64,000 nucleotides of DNA from Halonotius pteroides (GTDB lineage Archaea; Halobacteriota; Halobacteria; Halobacteriales; Haloferacaceae), in assembly GCF_003605635.1 (NCBI RefSeq), contig NZ_QMDW01000003.1:124001-188000 (forward strand), read 5' to 3'. The notes under the pieces are model-generated. The model did no database searches and was not told the origin of the DNA. It saw only the letters and a list, made by a program, of their open reading frames with translations. This document shows, one piece after another, positions 8,549 through 57,226 of this stretch. The translations under genes and the position numbers were made by a program. Numbering within the stretch: position 1 is the first letter of the stretch; every line of letters starts with the position of its first letter.

Positions 8549-9541
8549 TCAGTCAGCGTCGGCATCAACCGCGTCGGCGCGCGGGATCGTCACGTCGCTG
8601 AGGTCGGCTTCGATCTGCTCGCGTTGGTCGGCGAAGGTTCCAGGCAGAATCAGTTCCTCGCCCAACGCATCAAGTGGTTCGTCGCTGGTGTACCCCGGCC
8701 CGCTGGTGGCGAGCTCGAACAACACCCCATTTGGCTCACGGAAATACACCGATCGGAACCAGTGGCGGTCGATCTGCTGGGTCGGACGAACGCTGTGGGC
8801 GGAGACAGCCTGTCGCATCGCCGTTTGATCCGCGTCGCTTGGCGTCTGGAAGGCGACATGGTGGACGGTGCCGTGGCCCTGCCGTGCGCCCTCAACCGTT
8901 GGTAATACGTCGACGTACTGGCCGACGGTACCGGCTGCCTCGAAGCGCGTGCGCTCATCGCCCGGCGTATCGCCCGGTGATTCTTCGGTGCCGGTTGCTT
9001 TGAGGCCCATCGTCCGCAGCACCTCTTCTGTTTGATGCGGATCGGCCAGCCACAGCGTCACCGAGTGGAACCCGCGGATCGCGGCCGTCTCGGGAACAAA
9101 TTCGGTCCACGGGACTGTGGGGTCGTCCGCTGGGATCTCGACGGCGACGAGTTCGACCGGGAGCCCGTCTGGATCGTAAAACGGCAGGACGGTCTCGCCG
9201 AACCGCTCGATGCGATCCTCGTAGTCGACACCGTAGTCGTCGAACCGGTCTTCCCAGAACTCAAGACTACCCTCGGGCACGCGGAAGGCGGTGCGGGAGA
9301 CCTGACCGGAGCCGACCTTGCCCTGGCGGAGATTCTCCCACGGGAAGAAGGTCATACTGGTGCCGGGGGTGCCCTCGGCGTCGGCGAAAAAGAAATGATA
9401 GGTGCTGGGGTCGTCCTGATTAACTGACCGCTTGACGAGGCGGAGGCCCAGCGTTTCGACCCAGAAATCGATGTTCTGTTGGGGGTCGCCCGCGATGCAG
9501 GTCACGTGGTGAATGCCGGGTGTCGATGGTGCGTCTGCCAT
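8549..9541 (-). CDS. VOC-family ring-cleaving dioxygenase
   Basis: A two-module vicinal oxygen chelate protein of about 330 residues, similar to LinE/PcpA-type ring-cleaving dioxygenases. The first module begins GIHHVTCIAGD (metal His), the second GFHSVTLWLADP (metal His), and the later strand VLFELATSG supplies the metal Glu. Such enzymes open hydroquinone or catechol rings with Fe(II), but many haloarchaeal members are uncharacterised and could act on other substrates. ATG at 9,541 (MADAPSTPG) is preferred; another ATG sits two codons upstream at 9,547. No aromatic-degradation genes are nearby. Confidence 0.85.
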   Translation of the reverse strand: MADAPSTPGIHHVTCIAGDPQQNIDFWVETLGLRLVKRSVNQDDPSTYHFFFADAEGTPGTSMTFFPWENLRQGKVGSGQVSRTAFRVPEGSLEFWEDRFDDYGVDYEDRIERFGETVLPFYDPDGLPVELVAVEIPADDPTVPWTEFVPETAAIRGFHSVTLWLADPHQTEEVLRTMGLKATGTEESPGDTPGDERTRFEAAGTVGQYVDVLPTVEGARQGHGTVHHVAFQTPSDADQTAMRQAVSAHSVRPTQQIDRHWFRSVYFREPNGVLFELATSGPGYTSDEPLDALGEELILPGTFADQREQIEADLSDVTIPRADAVDADAD

Positions 9542-19815: not shown

Positions 19816-20613
19816 TCAGGCTGTGACGATGGCGATGAGGTTTGAGGCTGTCAACACCGCGCCGAGGAGCGCGACAAACGCCGGCGGGCCGTAGTAGCCG
19901 ACCCAATCTTCCCGCTGTCGACCGTAGAGATTGATCGTGATTGCGATCAGGAACACGAGTATTTTGAGCCCAAACAATCCCCGAATCCCAAATTCGGCTA
20001 AAAGGACGGCGACCAGCGGGTTCCCCTCGCCGAGTCCGTCGACGAGATACACCGCGATGATCGTCGAAACGGAGTCACCAACCCCGTAGGTTGCCACCGC
20101 GATCACCCACAGCACCCAGAGGCCGAGACGCTGTGTCATCGGTCTCGTGTCGTCGGCTGTCTCCTCGGCGGCGTCGGTATCAGCGGCCGAAAGTGGGCGA
20201 GCCGCCAGCCGCTTACACCGCGCCGACACCAACGCGGTCGGGATCCCCGTCTCCGTTCGGGGAACATGGGCGGCGGCGTCGGCAGTCTCCAACCGCTCGA
20301 GAAACGCCGCATCGCTGCCGGCCGTGATCACGACCAGCGGTTTTTCTGGATACAGTTCGCGTATCTGTTCGTAGACGGCCGCCGACGTGACTTCCGGGGC
20401 TGAGCAGTCGGCGATCAAACAGTCGACTGCGTGTACCTCTAAGGGGTTGACATCGCGACCAACGACACTGCGTTCGGCATCAGGCAGTCCGCTTTTGAGC
20501 TCGGATTCGATTGGGGTTGTACTGGGCTCCCAGAGGCCGATGGTGAGTGGGCGCTCGTCGGTATCAGTATGCGATGTTTCTGTGTCGGGCTCTGGCTCAG
20601 GTGACGGTGCCAT
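19816..20613 (-). CDS. Receiver-like domain fused to a three-helix membrane domain
   Basis: The first ~130 residues look like a response-regulator fold: TIGLWEP strand, DCLIADCS with Asp69 in the phospho-acceptor position, and VVITAG for the Thr/Ser strand. The N-terminal acidic pair is absent, so it is probably a pseudo-receiver. After an acidic linker (about 145-158), three or four hydrophobic segments follow with the sequence GDSVSTIIAVYLVDGLGEGNPL, which resembles the DUF5658 membrane family. The arrangement suggests a membrane-tethered protein-interaction module. The protein is 265 residues; partner and function are unknown. Confidence 0.65.
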   Translation of the reverse strand: MAPSPEPEPDTETSHTDTDERPLTIGLWEPSTTPIESELKSGLPDAERSVVGRDVNPLEVHAVDCLIADCSAPEVTSAAVYEQIRELYPEKPLVVITAGSDAAFLERLETADAAAHVPRTETGIPTALVSARCKRLAARPLSAADTDAAEETADDTRPMTQRLGLWVLWVIAVATYGVGDSVSTIIAVYLVDGLGEGNPLVAVLLAEFGIRGLFGLKILVFLIAITINLYGRQREDWVGYYGPPAFVALLGAVLTASNLIAIVTA

Positions 20614-20925
20614 CTACAACAATCTCGCGACCGGCTGTGGTGCCTCTGCGTGTATCGATTGCATGTGGTGTTCGTGTTATGTGGTAATGTGAGTCCGGCT
20701 GATAGGAGTGGTGGTGACACTCGATTTGTCCATCAAAGTATCAGACTTTGATGAGTAAATTAAAACACTGGTTCGAAGGTAATCTGACAACATCACATTT
20801 ATTTTCCGATGTTATCTGCCTACCACTATACGGAAAGCCGAGTAAATTAAAATTGATTCATAATTATCATATTGTGCTTCGTAGATGCGTTAACTACGGC
20901 CAATGTATGGTTTTATTTGCTCCGC
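20614..20925. other. AT-rich gap with a perfect hairpin
   Basis: This 312-bp gap is far richer in A and T than the flanking genes. It holds a perfect 8-bp inverted repeat CATCAAAG/CTTTGATG with a 7-nt loop at 20,731-20,753. No gene is supported; an 82-codon frame (20,748-20,996) lacks any family resemblance and runs into the next gene antisense. It forms the left border of the exported-protein island. Confidence 0.45.
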
Positions 20926-22485
20926 TTAAACACTTGATGGCCTCGGGTCGTCCCCACTTATCGTCACGCTATCTGAGATACTATAACCACCGTTAGGGAC
21001 AACATCTCCGCTGATTGTCGCGAATTTCTTTATTTCAATTTCAGCCTGACTACCTTTGCGAGTCTTAACATCGCCACCAACCTCAGCACGCTCCTTGATT
21101 TCGATTGATCCTTTATTCGTCACGTCGCCACCGATCTTAGCTCTCTCTCCGACAGTGATGCTATATCCATTCTTACCCTTTCGAATATTGATATTGCCGG
21201 CAACTTCGGCGTCTTCCCCGATGGTAATTGACCCGTTATTGGTGACATCACCACTGATTTTAGCACCTTCATCGACACTAATGCTATATCCGTTTTTACC
21301 TTCTCGAATTAGAACATTACCGCCAACTTCGGCATTCTCCTTGATTGTAATTGATCCGTTGTTGATGATGTCACCACCGATCTTAGCTCTCTCTCCAGCA
21401 GTGATGCTATACCCATTTTTACCTCTTCGAACCTTGACAATACCGCCAATTTCCGCGTCTTTCCCAATTGTAATCGATCCGTTGTTAATGATCGGGCCGC
21501 AAACCGTTCCACCTTCTCCAACAGTGATACTATTTCCGTTTTTACCTTTTCGAATCTTGACGCTACCGCCAACATCGGCGTCTGGCTTGACTTCAATTGA
21601 CCCGTTGTTGGTTATGTTCCCATTGATTTTAGCACCTTCTCCGACAGTGATGTCATACCCATTTTTACCTTTTCTTATATTGACATTACTACCGACCTTG
21701 GCATTCTTCCCGATGCTAATTGACCCGTTGTTGGTTACGTTCCCACCGATTTTAGCACCTACTCCAACACTGATGCTGTTTCCATTTTTACCCTTTTGAA
21801 TTCTTACATTACCGCCAACCTCTGCACCCTGCTTAATCTCAATCGATCCGTTAGAGACCACATCGCCACTGATCTTAGCACGTTCACCAATAGTAAGGTC
21901 ACGATTACTGTTTACATCGCCATCAATTTCTGCATCTTTGGCGATTTGCTCAGCTCCATCATAGGTTTTTGCGCTGTCGCTAACAGATACGTCAACAGTG
22001 GTCGCAACTGGGCAACTTGGAATACTTACACCAAAGTCAGTCGCGACAGCTATTTCCCGTGTAGCCGTGACTGAAACTGATTCTGATTCTGCGGTAATAG
22101 TCACTTCGATTGGACTTGTGCCTGATCGTTCTTTGGTTGCCCTTGCCATGACATCGCCCGACTTGTTTTTGTCCAGCTCGCCTATCGGCGAGATATCAAG
22201 AAGATTGCCCGAGGAGCTAATAGATATGTCTAGATCTGAGTTAGTTTGATTGATCAACTCAAGTATTTTTTCTCTTTTATTTTTATTTTCAAATTTAACA
22301 GCGGACGTTTTGATTCCTAACAGAGCGTTTTCATCAGCCGCCGTTGTGACGCTAAATCTGCGCGGGGTCTCAGCCTGTGTAAACGCACCGGTACCGCTGA
22401 TAGCAAGTGTTCCCCCGCCGGCGATCAGCGCGATCGCTGCTCGTCGGCTGAGTTTCCCACCACCGCCTCTGGATGTTGGTGACAT
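20926..22485 (-). CDS. Exported repeat protein with bactofilin-like beta-solenoid
   Basis: A 519-residue protein. Residues 14-35 form a Tat-like signal (SRRAAIALIAGGG), then the GTGAFTQAE segment and a beta-rich domain (about 40-170) like the DUF1102 proteins next to it. From residue 199 to 485 there are seven 41-residue repeats built on GAKIGGDVTNNGSITI followed by AEVGGNV-IRKGKNGYSIT, plus a partial eighth. Each repeat splits into two ~20-residue turns with the G-x-V/I pattern of bactofilins and polymer-forming beta-solenoids, so a long exported filament or spacer is likely. Lys and Asn are unusually common for a halophile, and the codons are AT-richer than in neighbouring genes, suggesting transfer. 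Spacing to the upstream gene is 6 bp, so it is probably the last gene of an operon. Confidence 0.8.
   Translation of the reverse strand: MSPTSRGGGGKLSRRAAIALIAGGGTLAISGTGAFTQAETPRRFSVTTAADENALLGIKTSAVKFENKNKREKILELINQTNSDLDISISSSGNLLDISPIGELDKNKSGDVMARATKERSGTSPIEVTITAESESVSVTATREIAVATDFGVSIPSCPVATTVDVSVSDSAKTYDGAEQIAKDAEIDGDVNSNRDLTIGERAKISGDVVSNGSIEIKQGAEVGGNVRIQKGKNGNSISVGVGAKIGGNVTNNGSISIGKNAKVGSNVNIRKGKNGYDITVGEGAKINGNITNNGSIEVKPDADVGGSVKIRKGKNGNSITVGEGGTVCGPIINNGSITIGKDAEIGGIVKVRRGKNGYSITAGERAKIGGDIINNGSITIKENAEVGGNVLIREGKNGYSISVDEGAKISGDVTNNGSITIGEDAEVAGNINIRKGKNGYSITVGERAKIGGDVTNKGSIEIKERAEVGGDVKTRKGSQAEIEIKKFATISGDVVPNGGYSISDSVTISGDDPRPSSV
21031..21891 (-). repeat. Seven tandem 123-bp coding repeats
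   Basis: The region encodes residues 199-485 of the solenoid protein as seven units of exactly 123 bp (41 codons), without spacers or length change. Units differ at many codon positions, so they are diverged rather than fresh copies. The most constant part encodes GKNGYSIT or GKNGNSIT. The exact periodicity is visible in the protein and DNA. Such arrays can expand or contract by recombination. Confidence 0.85.
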
Positions 22486-22491
22486 ACGTGC

Positions 22492-23337
22492 TCACTCCGT
22501 TGCAGCGAACTGGATGTCCGAAAGACGCTGTAGGTCGCCTATTCCATCGGTCGTATCCAGTACTACTACGACCTCAATTATCTCTCCGGTGGCTAAGTCA
22601 ATACCATTTGCGGCTGCCAGATTGTCACCGGATGCAACGGCATTTGCATCTGTATCGAGCACCCGGTATGGGAACCGAATCTGATCTGTGCTCATTGTGT
22701 CGGCTCCATCAAGCAACTCCATGGTGACAGTGACCGACGGCACTGTTGTCGTCGCGTCCTCAGGGCCAACATTGGCAACAAGAAAGGCCACCTCAGTACC
22801 CGGTGGACTGCCTCTGAGCGTCCCGATTCTCGTTGTGGCATTCTTATTCAGTTCATCATCGCGGATGCCGCGCAGGAATCCGTCAGGTGTCCCGGTAATG
22901 TAGCCCGTCTCGAACAGCGAGCCGTTCCATGTCGCCGGCCCGCCGCTATTGAGACCGTTTGCCGCAGCCGGGTCGACAAGCACTTCGACCGATGTTGAGA
23001 CGGATGTATCGTCGCCTGCTCCAGCGTCTGTGTCGCCAGTTCCATCGGTCTCATCGTCTATCGCCCCGTCGTCATCGATCGCTCCGTCATCATCACCCGC
23101 GTCGCCGTCTGCCGTGCCCTCGCTCCCGGTCGCCTCGCCACTGCTGCTATCCTCTTCGCCAGCTTGCCCAAGCGAACTGAACGTAACCGACTGCTCAACT
23201 CCAGCAACCTGTATCCAGTTGTCACCAAGACTTCCCTGCGATCCGACAGTAAGTGCGCCGCTGCTGACGAAGCCAGCGGCTCCGAATGTCAGTGTAGCGA
23301 TTGCGATGACCGTTCGTCTGCGGTTGCGTTTGGGCAT
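22492..23337 (-). CDS. Exported DUF1102-neighbourhood protein (TasA/camelysin-like candidate)
   Basis: A 281-residue protein starting MPKRNRRRTVIAIATLTFGA, a basic Tat/Sec-type signal, followed by SSGALTVGSQGSLGDNW. A low-complexity acidic linker (about residues 55-108, Asp/Gly/Glu-rich) separates this from a beta-rich C-terminal domain (about 112-281) with VSTSVEVLVDP at its start and a final strand VVVVLDTT...DIQFAATE. The same end pattern is found in the neighbouring exported proteins. I infer a surface or matrix protein. It lies between a partial copy of itself (6 bp upstream) and the solenoid gene (6 bp downstream). Confidence 0.65.
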   Translation of the reverse strand: MPKRNRRRTVIAIATLTFGAAGFVSSGALTVGSQGSLGDNWIQVAGVEQSVTFSSLGQAGEEDSSSGEATGSEGTADGDAGDDDGAIDDDGAIDDETDGTGDTDAGAGDDTSVSTSVEVLVDPAAANGLNSGGPATWNGSLFETGYITGTPDGFLRGIRDDELNKNATTRIGTLRGSPPGTEVAFLVANVGPEDATTTVPSVTVTMELLDGADTMSTDQIRFPYRVLDTDANAVASGDNLAAANGIDLATGEIIEVVVVLDTTDGIGDLQRLSDIQFAATE

Positions 23338-23343
23338 TTTTAC

Positions 23344-23790
23344 TCAGTTCACCATCACGGATTCCACACAGGCATCTGTTAAGCGTCGCAGTATAGTAGC
23401 CGTTTCGAACAGCGAACCATCATATATCGCCGACTCGGTGCTATTGAGACTGTTTGCCGCAGCCGGGTCGACGGGTACTTCAACCGACGTTGAGACGAGT
23501 GTGCTGCTGCCCGTACCGGCGTCTGTGTCATCAACTACATCTGTCGCCCTGTCGTCGCCACCTGTCATACCTTCGCTCTCGGTCGCCTCGCCACTGCTGT
23601 TACCTCCACCGCCGGTTTGCCCAAGCGAACTGAACGTAACTGACTGCTCAGTTCCAGCGATCTGTATCCAGTCATCACCAAGACTCTCCTCTGAACCGAC
23701 ATTAATACAATCGCTAGCGACAAAACCGCTGGCTCCAAATGCCAGCGTAGCGATTCCAATGGCGGTTCGCCTGCGGTTAGATTGTGGCAT
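23344..23790 (-). pseudogene. Frameshifted partial tandem copy of the downstream gene
   Basis: From MPQSNRRRTAIGIATLAFGA to GSLFET the product aligns with the first ~148 residues of the gene at 22,492-23,337 with a shorter acidic linker. One base is then missing (about 23,400), giving an altered tail that stops at 23,344. Restoring the base gives TGYYTATLNRCLCGIRDGEL, parallel to TGYITGTPDGFLRGIRDDEL in the intact copy, and the homology runs up to AAAAATGCC, where the ATG of the intact gene starts. This is a 5' partial duplication. It may still be translated as a 148-residue secreted protein. Confidence 0.75.
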
Positions 23791-23862
23791 TATAATGTAA
23801 TTGTCGGGCTCTTTGTCCCAAGCACGATCAAGACGGGACAGCGACAACAACTGGAATTCAGT

Positions 23863-24459
23863 TTACGATGTGTTGGCCGTAATAGTAAGCGTATAGCTTG
23901 CGCCTGAAGGTAATCTGTTAGGGTCGAAGGTGGTACTATCATCATCAAGGAGATTGACGATTACCCCAAAGGTGATGCTATTTCCCACTGAGAGACCACT
24001 GCCGCCTGTGATATCGTTATTATCATCGTTATTATTATCGTATGTGTTGCTTCCGCTCCCGGTGGTAAATTCAAATGCGACGCTTGTATCAACATCTCCA
24101 GACGAAGTCGTTAAATTAAGATTAAGCGATGATATATCTTGCGAACCATTGTTTGTTACCGTTATCAGGTTATTGATCGTTGTTTTCGCATCTTGATTAA
24201 GACCTGATGAGCTTGCGCTATCACCATCTGTTCCGTTAAGATTAATTTGAATCTGATCGCCAGGGGTGGTAACGTAATCAGAGGCGTTCTCGCCGCTGGC
24301 AGGCGCAAGGCTTAGTGCCGCAGATGCGTCGCCTGCTGTTGAAACGTTTACATTTCGCTCCGCTTCAACTGATGTGAACGCGCCCGAGCCGCCGACTACG
24401 CCCGCGCCTGCCGCAACCGTGCCGAGTCCGATGAGTGCGTTGCGTCGTGTGAGTCTCAT
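23863..24459 (-). CDS. DUF1102-like exported protein
   Basis: A 198-residue protein that starts MRLTRRNALIGLGTVAAGAG, a Tat signal with RRNALIGL, then GSGAFTSVEAERNVNVSTAGD, the signature of haloarchaeal DUF1102-type exoproteins. The mature part is beta-rich with Asn/Ser/Asp-rich loops, including a run of Asn-Asp codons (about 140-150). Related archaeal and bacterial proteins (TasA, camelysin, AbpA) build extracellular fibres, so a fibre subunit role is inferred. The start at 24,459 is preferred to an upstream in-frame start at 24,615 because it gives the signal peptide directly and is preceded by a promoter box shared with the divergent paralogue. Confidence 0.75.
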   Translation of the reverse strand: MRLTRRNALIGLGTVAAGAGVVGGSGAFTSVEAERNVNVSTAGDASAALSLAPASGENASDYVTTPGDQIQINLNGTDGDSASSSGLNQDAKTTINNLITVTNNGSQDISSLNLNLTTSSGDVDTSVAFEFTTGSGSNTYDNNNDDNNDITGGSGLSVGNSITFGVIVNLLDDDSTTFDPNRLPSGASYTLTITANTS

Positions 24460-50455: not shown

Positions 50456-50986
50456 ATGAATCGTCTTGATACACAGGTCACCGAGATCATGAGTAGTCCC
50501 GTTCGGACAACCGATAAGGACACACCAGTAAGTGACGTCGCTGAGATGTTGCTCACGGCAGATATCGGATCGGTCGTTATGACGGATCTCGACGGGATTG
50601 TCACAAAGACAGACCTTCTCACAGCCGTCAGCGACAACCACACCACCGACCCAATCGCAACGGTGATGACCGACTCAGTGGTAACGGTGTCGCCGGATGC
50701 TGATGTGCAGACGGCGGTCAATCGGATGCAAGAACACCAGATCAAACATCTTGTTGTCGAAACCGGGGGTGAAGCGGTTGGCATTGTCACCACCGCCGAC
50801 CTCGCGGCGACGTTGGCAACGGTTCCCGATTCGATCACGAGTATGTTCGCCACGTCGAATAATCCGAATCAACTGAATCGATATGAGTGTACACAGTGTG
50901 GACGCCGTGTAACGGCGGATACACAACCAAAGCAGTGCGGTGAGTGTGGCGCACCGGTACGGAACATCAGCGTCACACGGGACTGA
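50456..50986 (+). CDS. CBS-pair protein with C-terminal zinc ribbon
   Basis: A 176-residue protein. Two CBS motifs (VTEIMSSPVRTTDKDTPVSDVAEML and VMTDSVVTVSPDADVQTAVNRM, about residues 8-125) form an adenine-nucleotide or SAM-sensing Bateman module. The C-terminus is a four-Cys zinc ribbon (YECTQCGRRV...CGECGAPV). Such proteins are inferred to sense energy or metabolite state and to bind a partner or nucleic acid through the ribbon. It appears to be a single gene after the tRNA-Leu gap. Confidence 0.85.
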   Translation: MNRLDTQVTEIMSSPVRTTDKDTPVSDVAEMLLTADIGSVVMTDLDGIVTKTDLLTAVSDNHTTDPIATVMTDSVVTVSPDADVQTAVNRMQEHQIKHLVVETGGEAVGIVTTADLAATLATVPDSITSMFATSNNPNQLNRYECTQCGRRVTADTQPKQCGECGAPVRNISVTRD

Positions 50987-53463: not shown

Positions 53464-54270
53464 ATGGGTTCCTTTGATGACGTTCTTGCTGACATCATGG
53501 CAGATATCGACAGCGTGTTCCTCTTTTCGCCCAACGGGGCGTTCTACGAGCGGTTTGCGGACATCGACGATGTTGTTGTCGTCGCCGGGGAGAACACCGT
53601 CGAGGCTGAGACCTTCGTTGAACTCCCGATCGAATTCACCGGTATCAGGGATCGCATCCGATTCGGCATCGAGGGGGCGATGGATAATAACCTCGTCGAG
53701 GAGGGCAACACCGTCGCCTGCTTCGGTTCGATTTTCGCCGGTGACGCCGACTCGGCTGTCCGGGTACGGGTCAGCGAAGATATGCGGTCGGGCCTCTACG
53801 ACCTCTTTACGAACTCTCGTGCCGACCCGAACGTCATCCGCGACGTGTTCGATGTCGCCCTTGAACTCGGCCGGAAAGGCCAGAAGGGCAGCCCAGTCGG
53901 CGCGCTGTTCGTGGTCGGCGACGCGGGCAAGGTGATGAACAAGTCTCGTCCGCTGAGCTACAACCCCTTCGAGAAATCCCACGTCCATGTCGGCGATCCC
54001 ATCGTCAACGTGATGCTCAAGGAGTTTTCGCGCTTGGATGGCGCGTTCGTCATCTCCGATTCCGGGAAGATCGTCTCCGCCTACCGCTACCTCGAACCGA
54101 GCGCGGAGGGCATCGACATCCCAAAAGGTCTCGGTGCTCGCCATATGGCCGGCGGTGCGATCACCCGTGACACCAATGCAACGGCGATCGTGCTGTCGGA
54201 ATCCGATGGACTGGTCAGAGCGTTCAAAAGCGGCGAGCTTATACTCGAACTTGATCCAGAGGAGCACTGA
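53464..54270 (+). CDS. dacZ: Diadenylate cyclase (DacZ type)
   Basis: A 268-residue archaeal diadenylate cyclase, which makes c-di-AMP from two ATP. The DisA_N domain is at the C-terminal half, with DGA at 192-194 and GARHMAGGAITRD at 224-236 in place of the RHRAA-type motif. In haloarchaea c-di-AMP is essential and linked to osmotic homeostasis. ATATATTTTATA lies directly before the ATG at 53,464, so the true start may be the downstream ATG at 53,497. The next gene, a mechanosensitive channel, starts 5 bp after its stop. Confidence 0.92.
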   Translation: MGSFDDVLADIMADIDSVFLFSPNGAFYERFADIDDVVVVAGENTVEAETFVELPIEFTGIRDRIRFGIEGAMDNNLVEEGNTVACFGSIFAGDADSAVRVRVSEDMRSGLYDLFTNSRADPNVIRDVFDVALELGRKGQKGSPVGALFVVGDAGKVMNKSRPLSYNPFEKSHVHVGDPIVNVMLKEFSRLDGAFVISDSGKIVSAYRYLEPSAEGIDIPKGLGARHMAGGAITRDTNATAIVLSESDGLVRAFKSGELILELDPEEH

Positions 54271-54275
54271 TCGAC

Positions 54276-55061
54276 GTGTCCGTCCTCCAACTTGTGCTCC
54301 CCGACTGGCTGGCGGTCATCTCCACACGCCTGTGGGCTGCCGCCGTGATCGTCTTGTCAGGGATCGTTCTTGGGTATCTGACGATGCTTATGGGTCGTCG
54401 CCTGCTGTACCGTCTCGGCATCGACGACGCCGTTGAGGGCACAGCCGTTGAGCGAGCGGCCGGCGAATACGGCACCTCGACGGTCGGCCTCATCACCAAG
54501 CTGGCGGGCTACTTCGTGATCATCCTCTCGGTGTTTATCGCCGGCACGTTCAGCAATATTCAGTTTGCTGACCTCTTTTTGCGGGCGGCGGCGGTCTTCC
54601 TCCCACAGCTCGCGACCGCGCTGCTCATCCTCGTCGTCGGGATCATCATCGGCGATAAGATCGAGGTGTTGGTCTCCGAACGCCTCCGGGGGATCAAACT
54701 CCCTGAGATCGGCGTTATTCCGGCAACCGCCCGCTACAGCGTCCTCTTTGTCGCCACCTTGATCGCCCTCGGTCAGATCGGCGTCGCCACGAACGCGCTG
54801 ATCGTGCTGTTGGGTGCCTATGCCTTAGCCCTCATCGTCTTCACCGCGATTGCGACCCAGGAACTGCTGGCCTCCGGTGCGGTCGGCGTCTATCTCCTCC
54901 TCACGGAACCATACAGCATCGGCGACGAGGTCGCTGTCGCCGGTCAACAGGGGATCGTCCAAGAGATCGATCTCTTTGTCACCCGCATCGAGACCGACGG
55001 CGAGGAACATATCGTCCCGAATCGAACCGTGCTTCAGGACGGCATCGTTCGAGTGCAATAA
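54276..55061 (+). CDS. MscS-like mechanosensitive channel (osmotic)
   Basis: A 261-residue membrane protein with about five hydrophobic segments followed by the MscS beta domain (TEPYSIGDEVAVAGQQGIVQEIDLFVTRIETDGEEHIVPNRTV). GTG at 54,276 is used. The distance to dacZ is 5 bp, so the two are co-transcribed. Osmotic-stress channels are typical c-di-AMP targets in bacteria; here the link is inferred from position. Confidence 0.85.
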   Translation: MSVLQLVLPDWLAVISTRLWAAAVIVLSGIVLGYLTMLMGRRLLYRLGIDDAVEGTAVERAAGEYGTSTVGLITKLAGYFVIILSVFIAGTFSNIQFADLFLRAAAVFLPQLATALLILVVGIIIGDKIEVLVSERLRGIKLPEIGVIPATARYSVLFVATLIALGQIGVATNALIVLLGAYALALIVFTAIATQELLASGAVGVYLLLTEPYSIGDEVAVAGQQGIVQEIDLFVTRIETDGEEHIVPNRTVLQDGIVRVQ

Positions 55062-55137
55062 CATCCGTCGATTGCTGTACCAGCGGTGTCGCTACTGTCG
55101 TCAGCCACGGATTTCGTGTTACACACTACCGCAGCGA

Positions 55138-56292
55138 CTAGCCGCTATCCTCGCCGAGCAGCTGTTTGGAGGCTTCCTCGGCGTCGCCGTTCCCGACCGC
55201 GGAGTTCGCCAGCAGTCGACCACCGATCTCAGCGGGGCTGATAACGCGGTCGGCCCCGGCGTGGCGGAGTTTGGCGACGTTTTCTCGCTGCATCGCAGCC
55301 GCGAGGACGGTCAGGTCGTCGGTGAGCTGTTTGGCGGTGAGAATCGCCAACGCGTCTTGGGCGTCGTTTTCAGTGGCGGCGATCGCCGCCCGGGCGTCGG
55401 TGATTCTGACCTGTTGCAGCGGGGCTTCATCGCTCGGTTCGGCTGTCAACACGGCGATATCGCGCTCTGCGAGCCGCCGGGCCGCAGTCTCGTTTGTTGT
55501 GACAACGGCAAACTGGGTCTCGTCGCCGAGATGTTCGATAATCGGTTCGGTCAGATCCCCATAGCCGAGGAGGATCACATGATCGTCGAGGAGGTTGAAC
55601 TGGCTGTCTGTCATACGTCCGAGTGCTTTCGAGAGTTGGGCTTCGATCGCGGGCGTCAGCAGGACACCGAGAGCGACCGCAAAGGCGGCGACGTTGATCA
55701 CCAACACCGACACCGAAAACAGCTTACCGAACTCCGAAGTGGCGGTTACGTCGCCGTAGCCGACGGTGCTGGCGGTGACGATGGTGTAGTAGAAGGCGTC
55801 GGTCAGCGTCGTCACTCCAGTGAACTCCTCGCGAAGCGCGTAGGAGCCAACCGTTCCATAAGAGATCGCTGTGACGAGAGCCACACCGGCGGCCAACTGC
55901 GTTGGTGACGGCGAAAACGAGCGATCAAACCGCGGCCGATTGAGGAGTAATGCCGGCACCGCGATGAGTGATAGTCCGACCAACGGCAGCGAGAACGTCG
56001 ACACCTGCAGCAGCCCTTGGATCGCCGTGATCGGGAGCAACACGACCGTCGCATACCAGCCGATCCGAAAACGGCTTTTCAGTGCATACGCACCCCCAAG
56101 CATCGTAAACCCGGTTAGCGTCCCGGTGAAGCCGACCGTTCGCCGCACCGCTGTCGGCACGACCGCGGCGAGTTCGCTGTCAACGCCGCCGGTCGTGATA
56201 TGGACGAGGCCGATCATAATCGACAGGATGGCGACGGCGAACGTCAGCAGGATCGACGCTCTGACGCTCACCCACTCCCGTGTCCACGTCAT
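55138..56292 (-). CDS. Potassium channel with RCK_N (TrkA-N) domain
   Basis: A 384-residue protein. The selectivity filter TVGYGD (176-181) is flanked by pore helices; residues 20-120 form additional membrane helices. From about 235 on the RCK_N domain begins with VILLGYGDLTEPI (GxGxxG-type nucleotide-binding motif). No RCK_C (c-di-AMP-binding) part is present. It faces the dacZ-mscS pair (convergent), forming an osmotic or K+ neighbourhood. Confidence 0.9.
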   Translation of the reverse strand: MTWTREWVSVRASILLTFAVAILSIMIGLVHITTGGVDSELAAVVPTAVRRTVGFTGTLTGFTMLGGAYALKSRFRIGWYATVVLLPITAIQGLLQVSTFSLPLVGLSLIAVPALLLNRPRFDRSFSPSPTQLAAGVALVTAISYGTVGSYALREEFTGVTTLTDAFYYTIVTASTVGYGDVTATSEFGKLFSVSVLVINVAAFAVALGVLLTPAIEAQLSKALGRMTDSQFNLLDDHVILLGYGDLTEPIIEHLGDETQFAVVTTNETAARRLAERDIAVLTAEPSDEAPLQQVRITDARAAIAATENDAQDALAILTAKQLTDDLTVLAAAMQRENVAKLRHAGADRVISPAEIGGRLLANSAVGNGDAEEASKQLLGEDSG

Positions 56293-56659
56293 CGAGGTGG
56301 CTTCGGGTGGCTGACCACTAATACACCCCGGATTGTCACCACCGACCGAACAGTGCGGCCGTCACAGCCACTACTGACGACTGGCAGACGCCGCGGTGTC
56401 GCCGCCGATACGGTGATTCTCGTTATCGACGACAGGGATGTGCCGCTGCTGTCGCCGACTGAGGAGAGTCGGCTGCCGACGGTGCCCGCCGAACCGCAGG
56501 CCGACCGCCAGTTTGCAACGCTGCTGGGTGGTGTCGACGAAACGATCTATGCACTTGTCCGTCCGGACGTATCGCAGAGGCTGGAAGCCCGAGCGAAATC
56601 GGTCGCCGTTCGGAGTCAGCGACCGAAGCCGACGACACGGCGGCATCGTCGCACGCTGC
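56293..56659. other. Gap with a possible degraded ORF
   Basis: On the plus strand one frame reads VILVIDDRDVPLLSPTEE, then VPAEPQADRQFATLLGGVDETIYALV (about 56,410-56,565), which looks like real acidic protein rather than antisense. However it has no good start, and the downstream part becomes Arg-rich and runs antisense into the acyltransferase gene. A decayed gene is the simplest reading. Confidence 0.3.
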
Positions 56660-57226
56660 TCAGGAACCAGCGTCACCCGCACCGTCATTTCTGTGGGTCG
56701 CCTCGCCGCCATTGATCGGTTCCGCCGGCACACCCGCGACGGTCGCGCCGGCCGGCACGTCACGCGTCACCAGCGAGTTGGCCGCGACCTGCGCGCCATC
56801 GCCGATCTCGACGCCCGGCAGCACCGTTGCGCCCGCGCCGATCATCGCCGCCTCACCGACAACGACATCGCCAAGCCGGTATTCGTCTTGAAGAAACTCA
56901 TGGCAGAGCAGCGTCGCGTCGTAACCGATGATCGCGTGGTCGCCAACGGAGATGCGCTCCGGCCAGAACACATCCGGTGTCGCCTCAAGCCCCCACGAAA
57001 CGCCGGTGCCAACGCTTGCGCCCAGCCGACGAAGCAGCCAGTTTTTCAGCCGCAGGCTCGGCGAGATACGGATCAGCCAGACAACCAGATAGTTGCGGAC
57101 GACCCGCCACGGCGACCGAATCGACGCCCACCCCCACAGCGAGTTGTGCGGGCCGACGGTCGACTGTCGCTGGAGGCGATCGTGGCGGCGCACGTCGTCG
57201 CTATCGTCGTGATCGGCTGACGGCAC
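56660..57226 (-). CDS. Left-handed beta-helix acyltransferase
   Basis: A 188-residue acyltransferase of the hexapeptide-repeat family (LbH). Repeats such as IGYDATLL, VVGEAAMIGAGATVLPGVEIGDGAQVAANSLVTRDVPAGATVAGVPAEPI are characteristic. The helical N-terminal part (about 25-75) includes a short amphipathic segment. It probably acetylates a sugar or other cytoplasmic acceptor; the substrate is unknown. It lies between a gap and purD. Confidence 0.88.
   Translation of the reverse strand: MPSADHDDSDDVRRHDRLQRQSTVGPHNSLWGWASIRSPWRVVRNYLVVWLIRISPSLRLKNWLLRRLGASVGTGVSWGLEATPDVFWPERISVGDHAIIGYDATLLCHEFLQDEYRLGDVVVGEAAMIGAGATVLPGVEIGDGAQVAANSLVTRDVPAGATVAGVPAEPINGGEATHRNDGAGDAGS

Follow-up and report, generated by a model that had tools for sequence, protein, structure and literature searches.

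Do a diadenylate cyclase gene, the MscS-family gene that follows it and the K+ channel gene that faces them form a single signalling unit? The question arises from one locus in the window, by which we mean the whole 64,000-nucleotide stretch of Halonotius pteroides DNA analysed here (Table 1), and which the earlier note had read as a local osmotic module with c-di-AMP acting on one or both channels. The account that we favour, if only by somewhat better than an even chance, is that dacZ and mscS2 form a class-wide operon encoding a co-expressed hypo-osmotic pair, that c-di-AMP acts on RCK_C proteins elsewhere, and that the K+ channel is a bystander. DacZ would make c-di-AMP in the cytosol, and c-di-AMP would lower K+ and osmolyte uptake via its probable receptors, RCK_C proteins encoded elsewhere in the genome. 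MscS2, from the same tightly spaced gene pair, would be an MscS-type protein without the cage that serves under hypo-osmotic conditions as a tension-gated valve or tension sensor and vents solute, the link between the two genes being mainly one of co-expression. The K+ channel would derive from a separate cassette (Kch, a split RCK_C protein and a third protein) that was placed here by a genus-level rearrangement and has lost its partners in the species of the window.

Table 1 Features of the dacZ locus in the window.
Feature	Position	Strand	Remarks
dacZ, diadenylate cyclase, 268 aa	53464..54270	+	DACZ_N (N-terminal) and DAC domains; DGA at 192-194
mscS2, MscS-family, 261 aa	54276..55061	+	PF00924 204-255, PF05552 98-141; GTG start
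Kch-like K+ channel, 384 aa	55138..56292	-	PF07885, PF02254; TVGYGD
Junction, ~2.08 kb net deletion	56343..56369	.	blastn and global alignment against H. aquaticus L172 8880-10982
pC pseudogene remnant	56370..56651	+	77-85% identity in blocks to L172 10983-11561
Hexapeptide acyltransferase-like gene	56660..57226	-	PF00132; frequent dacZ-mscS2 neighbour in haloarchaea

The first gene encodes a DacZ-type cyclase

The identification of the first gene as a diadenylate cyclase gene, made in the earlier note, was confirmed by curated model and Pfam searches, in which the protein scored 481 bits against NF041371 ('diadenylate cyclase DacZ'), above the cut-off of 430, and matched PF19294 (DACZ_N) and PF02457 (DAC), with the DGA motif present. 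Residues D192, G193 and A194 were unchanged across 25 aligned DacZ sequences, and among the named loci the window protein is 91-97% identical to DacZ of the Halonotius species that carry the whole neighbourhood. Judged by its sequence, this is an intact DacZ-type cyclase that is predicted to synthesise c-di-AMP, an activity reported for the Haloferax protein (PMC6741144; PMC8646023). Across the order, NF041371 matched 287 of 293 genomes, 279 of them above its cut-off; one DacZ (genome G008, locus L163) is split over two frames in its assembly. The targets of c-di-AMP were left open by the 2019 Haloferax paper (PMC6741144), and our search of the open-access literature turned up nothing on how DacZ is controlled.

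About 2.5 kb upstream of dacZ, the window encodes a protein with two CBS stretches and a DUF7129 domain (50456-50986, + strand). CBS domains bind adenine nucleotides. Further upstream, the block at 20001-24000 has a GC content of 0.518, whereas the remaining 4-kb blocks of the window range from 0.592 to 0.643; it is possibly acquired DNA.

dacZ and mscS2 are conserved as a pair

Only five bases (TCGAC) separate the TGA stop codon of dacZ from the GTG of mscS2, the spacing that had been noted before. To what extent this arrangement is conserved was assessed in 80 regions picked to spread over genera, 79 of which contained DacZ. In all 79, mscS2 lies downstream of dacZ on the same strand, which argues that the arrangement is not due to chance, and this part of the proposed osmotic module therefore held. 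The pair was likewise present in 80/80 named loci, a set that shares genomes with the first sample, and adjacent by coordinates in all 24 genomes of the order within a 148-genome sample of the phylum. An MscS2 profile matched in these 24 genomes at E <= 4e-92, each time beside a DAC gene; outside the order, the best E value among the matches listed was 7e-25, covering part of the protein only, and no DAC-MscS adjacency was seen among those matches. The gap between the two genes fell between -1 and +5 nt in 62 of the 77 pairs measured, values that are approximate because starts were picked by rule; the mscS2 genes of L094 and L106 had no start by this rule and were left out.

The operon itself is already known. 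Braun et al. (2019) described dacZ-mscS2 of Haloferax volcanii (HVO_1660-HVO_1659) as an operon in all halobacteria (PMC6741144); it is the same operon as in the window, whose DacZ belongs to the same family by the curated model. The paper ties c-di-AMP to osmotic homeostasis in Haloferax and reports dacZ as essential, since it could not be deleted, while mscS2 was deletable with slightly reduced growth in hypo-salt conditions (PMC6741144); the earlier note, too, had given c-di-AMP as essential in Haloferax. An acyltransferase homologue is also frequently found near dacZ (56/79 sampled loci, 55/80 named loci).

MscS2 ends at the beta domain

An AlphaFold (AF2) model of MscS2 (pLDDT 85.5, pTM 0.64) showed five membrane-length helices followed by a beta domain, at which the chain ends. 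Helix 5 appears to be the kinked pore helix, and the assignment of membrane-crossing helices is likewise our reading of the model. The position of the chain end is strictly kept, lying 0-3 aa past that of the window protein in 77/77 measured MscS2 sequences and 0-2 aa past it in 80/80 named ones. All of 31 homologues matched the MscS beta domain (PF00924), and none matched the cage domain (PF21082) at E <= 0.001, whereas the same library, used as a control, detected this cage domain in two of the window genome's three other MscS paralogues; the third gave no match, though its chain continues beyond the beta domain. The MscS2 alignments, of 31 and 63 sequences, are subsets selected for spread.

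The remaining core is recognisably that of MscS. A phmmer comparison with E. coli MscS gave E ~1e-11 over the pore helix and beta domain, and in a Foldseek search the best matches of the model were to E. coli MscS (E ~5e-8 over ~155 columns), with the cage-less Trypanosoma cruzi MscS at rank 40. MscS2 thus shares pore helix and beta domain with the E. coli channel in both sequence and fold, but lacks its C-terminal alpha/beta cage and carries two extra N-terminal helices of the PF05552 type; by sequence, it is a member of the MscS superfamily and not a canonical, cage-bearing MscS. Its N-terminal half is similar to PF05552 proteins of other archaea that have no beta domain, so that MscS2 looks like a TM-helix protein fused with an MscS pore and beta domain. 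Another archaeon encodes a beta-less PF05552 protein directly followed by a cage-bearing MscS (L284:343-1197 and 1197-2000, + strand), which may illustrate the components that were fused to give MscS2. We had also considered the nearly invariant EGTxxER loop, which connects helix 1 to helix 2, as a dedicated docking site for DacZ, an idea that was weakened because the N-terminal half, including this loop, aligns with the beta-less PF05552 proteins.

This layout appears to be a previously undescribed variation on MscS. No report of a missing cage in haloarchaeal MscS2 was met in our open-access literature search, and a word scan of the main text of Braun et al. found none of the terms cage, truncat-, vestibule, beta-domain or RCK. 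E. coli MscS variants lacking both parts of the C terminus reportedly failed to insert into membranes (PMC11262690), so it cannot be taken for granted that a prokaryotic channel without the cage works. Like MscS2, T. cruzi MscS (PDB 9bgq; PMC12334622) and Nematocida displodere MscS2 (PMC11262690) are described as having an MscS core and no full C-terminal cage, and the T. cruzi protein retains mechanosensitive channel activity (PMC12334622). Both are eukaryotic and have a shortened N terminus as well, whereas the N terminus of haloarchaeal MscS2 is extended and its gene is linked to a cyclase gene. A prokaryotic cage-less family would widen the picture given by the 2025 T. cruzi MscS paper.

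Is MscS2 a sensor for the cyclase?

A cage-less channel family locked to the gene of an essential cyclase is a specific candidate for a partner of DacZ. The strongest rival to the co-expression account takes DacZ as the regulated enzyme: MscS2 would act upstream as its membrane sensor, tension would set c-di-AMP synthesis, and the cyclase would replace the missing cage, with soluble DacZ possibly docking on the exposed beta-domain ring or on cytosolic loops of the channel. The distribution of the two genes speaks for such a connection, as no DacZ locus examined was without mscS2, and both were absent from G010, a 98% complete genome in one contig that gave only a weak DAC-like match to the DacZ model and whose best match to the MscS2 profile (E 1e-12) covered only the pore and beta region. 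Strict co-occurrence together with this joint absence suggested a tie closer than mere co-expression. The cage is, in addition, missing from all measured DacZ-linked channels, while two of the three unlinked paralogues match the C-terminal domain, and a deletable mscS2 would suit a regulatory role better than that of an essential target.

Several observations weigh against this reading. The co-loss is that of one genome: six more genomes gave no DacZ match (G016, G042, G165, G176, G185 and G301), and since these are only 58-92% complete, four of them in 130-360 contigs each, the joint absence rests on G010. G042 does have MscS2, its gene opening a contig (C99:6-743) so that a preceding dacZ would fall outside it, and a profile search found no close MscS2 in the other five, incomplete genomes. 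dacZ is also essential where mscS2 is not. Finally, we performed a mirror-tree test with PurD and the acyltransferase as controls, using the 82 of 160 loci that contained all four genes (65 after dropping identical DacZ). The DacZ-MscS2 partial distance correlation, given PurD and the acyltransferase, was 0.48 (0.37-0.56), and the DacZ-PurD value of 0.39 (0.28-0.51) overlaps this interval, so the test does not single out the DacZ-MscS2 pair. On balance, we regard a role for MscS2 as the sensor of DacZ as unlikely. Its most concrete form, in which DacZ sits at the cytoplasmic mouth of the cage-less MscS2 as a tension-controlled diadenylate cyclase, with the channel as sensor and c-di-AMP as output, is distinctly improbable in our estimate; if true, it would mean that membrane stretch is turned directly into an essential second messenger. 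Firmicutes offer a precedent for the gene pairing, as the gene of the cyclase CdaA is paired with that of a membrane-associated partner, CdaR. The likeness to dacZ-mscS2 lies in the combination of cyclase and membrane partner, but CdaA is membrane-bound and CdaR is not a channel.

In the metagenome-assembled genome (MAG) A07HN63, represented by L060, L119 and L176, DacZ and MscS2 are joined in one 547-aa frame. We rejected this as a genuine fusion, since it stems from the loss of 1 nt shortly before dacZ ends (L119 ~8780-8810), most likely a sequencing or assembly error. A fused cytosolic cyclase would also be ill-suited to MscS2, because five helices and a cytosolic beta domain would put the N terminus of the channel outwards.

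The DAC-like gene of G010 (L164:8731-9285, +) encodes a protein of 185 aa that matches DAC weakly, at 23.4 bits (below the cut-off of 27), and keeps the DGA motif, and it adjoins two antiporter genes with Na_H_Exchanger and TrkA_N domains (L164:9401-11080 and L164:11080-12879, both on the - strand). Similar proteins were seen in six other haloarchaeal genomes (L275-L280), including a tandem pair in L276, one member of which reached 37.2 bits, above the cut-off; they may constitute a further DAC-like family.

The K+ channel is a neighbour in Halonotius

The convergent K+ channel gene, the stop codon of which lies 76 bp from that of mscS2, agreed with its earlier description: the protein has an Ion_trans_2 domain (139-212), a TrkA_N domain (RCK_N, 239-353) and a TVGYGD pore that was read directly, and a Pfam search found no RCK_C (TrkA_C, PF02080). 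Against PRK10537 it scored 169 bits, under the 425 cut-off of that model. It shares pore and RCK_N with E. coli Kch and MthK, but MthK has RCK_C on the same chain, whereas the window channel does not and many of its relatives encode an RCK_C protein next door. A promoter and terminator scan of the gap between mscS2 and the channel gene found nothing, which says little here as the promoter model is bacterial.

The conservation of the dacZ-mscS2 pair across genera does not extend to the channel. Homologues of this particular channel were found near dacZ-mscS2 in only 3/79 sampled loci, all from Halonotius, and in 0/75 outside the genus, counting up to 8 kb on either side of dacZ (less at contig ends); within 6 kb of dacZ, 3/80 named loci had the channel, from the same three Halonotius species. 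The channel as such is widespread: 33 of 40 relatives, counting the genome of the window, have a homologue. Outside Halonotius, those that could be placed lie either on a contig other than that of dacZ or at a distance from it of over 200 kb. On these counts, for homologues of this channel at most 8 kb from dacZ, we rejected the channel as part of a conserved module, and the dacZ neighbourhood in the window is not to be read as a three-gene unit. In H. roseus, a gene for an MgtE-type divalent cation transporter (L173:7628-8872, -) lies between mscS2 and the channel gene.

The linkage counts bear directly on the earlier proposal that c-di-AMP binds and gates MscS2, the adjoining K+ channel or both. 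The genes are physically close in the window, and bacterial K+ transport is under the control of c-di-AMP. Known K+ transport proteins bind c-di-AMP through an RCK_C domain, however, which the window channel lacks and the gene for which, as described below, has been deleted from this locus; the linkage is confined to Halonotius among the loci examined; and we know of no domain in MscS2 that binds c-di-AMP. Braun et al. moreover judged MscS2 not to be a main c-di-AMP target (PMC6741144). Direct gating of either channel at this locus therefore seems very doubtful to us.

The probable RCK_C partner of the channel was a separate gene

Comparison with related loci explained the presence of RCK_N without RCK_C. 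The H. aquaticus channel gene is arranged divergently with one encoding a 410-aa protein, hydrophobic in its N-terminal part and bearing RCK_C (PF02080, E 2e-12), after which comes a third gene (pC) for a 407-aa protein without a Pfam match. Of 30 channel loci, 20 have a homologue of this RCK_C gene no more than 1.5 kb from the channel gene, 19 of them in divergent orientation; ten loci, the window among them, have none nearby, although in G300 and G076 one is present away from the channel locus. This gene order suggests that the channels of this group have RCK_N on one polypeptide and RCK_C on another, and that the partner, being encoded by a gene of its own, can be lost.

In the window, a net deletion of ~2.08 kb relative to H. 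aquaticus has removed the RCK_C gene entirely, together with roughly two thirds of pC from its start. Window positions 56200-56342 align with the 5' end of the H. aquaticus channel gene and its upstream region at 92% identity, and past the junction, 56370-56538 aligns with the third gene at 77%, with 56539-56608 (80%) and 56609-56800 (85%) covering the end of that gene and beyond. Within the pC remnant, 147 bp are missing at 56538/56539 and a 1-nt shift occurs at 56608/56609; the remnant is still recognised by tblastn (52% over 104 columns, E 3e-19). A search for the RCK_C gene gave no match in the genome of the window, and strong matches in the three sister species that keep the channel (3/3) and in 3/3 other genera. 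Without RCK_C and with its partner gene deleted, the window channel is unlikely to be a c-di-AMP receptor, so that the earlier suggestion of this protein as a c-di-AMP target was not supported; from its sequence context, the channel is not a promising candidate for control by c-di-AMP in this species.

A last alternative holds that, in an ancestor of Halonotius, the channel and its RCK_C partner were selected beside dacZ-mscS2 as a c-di-AMP/K+ module, the responsive subunit of which has since been lost. Consistent with this, the channel, the RCK_C gene and the third gene are all kept at the dacZ-mscS2 locus in H. aquaticus, H. roseus and H. terrestris. The arrangement is, however, that of one genus only, within which a fifth genome, MAG A07HN63 (73% complete), has neither the channel nor the RCK_C partner at the locus or in the assembly, and the mgtE gene separates mscS2 from the channel in H. 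roseus. We consider such an ancestral module rather improbable. The channel is a genus-level Halonotius neighbour with an eroded partner, separate from the conserved dacZ-mscS2 unit, in line with the co-expression account, in which it is probably a bystander.

Elsewhere in the genome of the window, other genes contain 11 RCK_C stretches. At the channel locus itself, a 171-aa open frame (56200-56715, +) spans the antisense 5' end of the channel gene and the pseudogene remnant, and looks like a chance frame.
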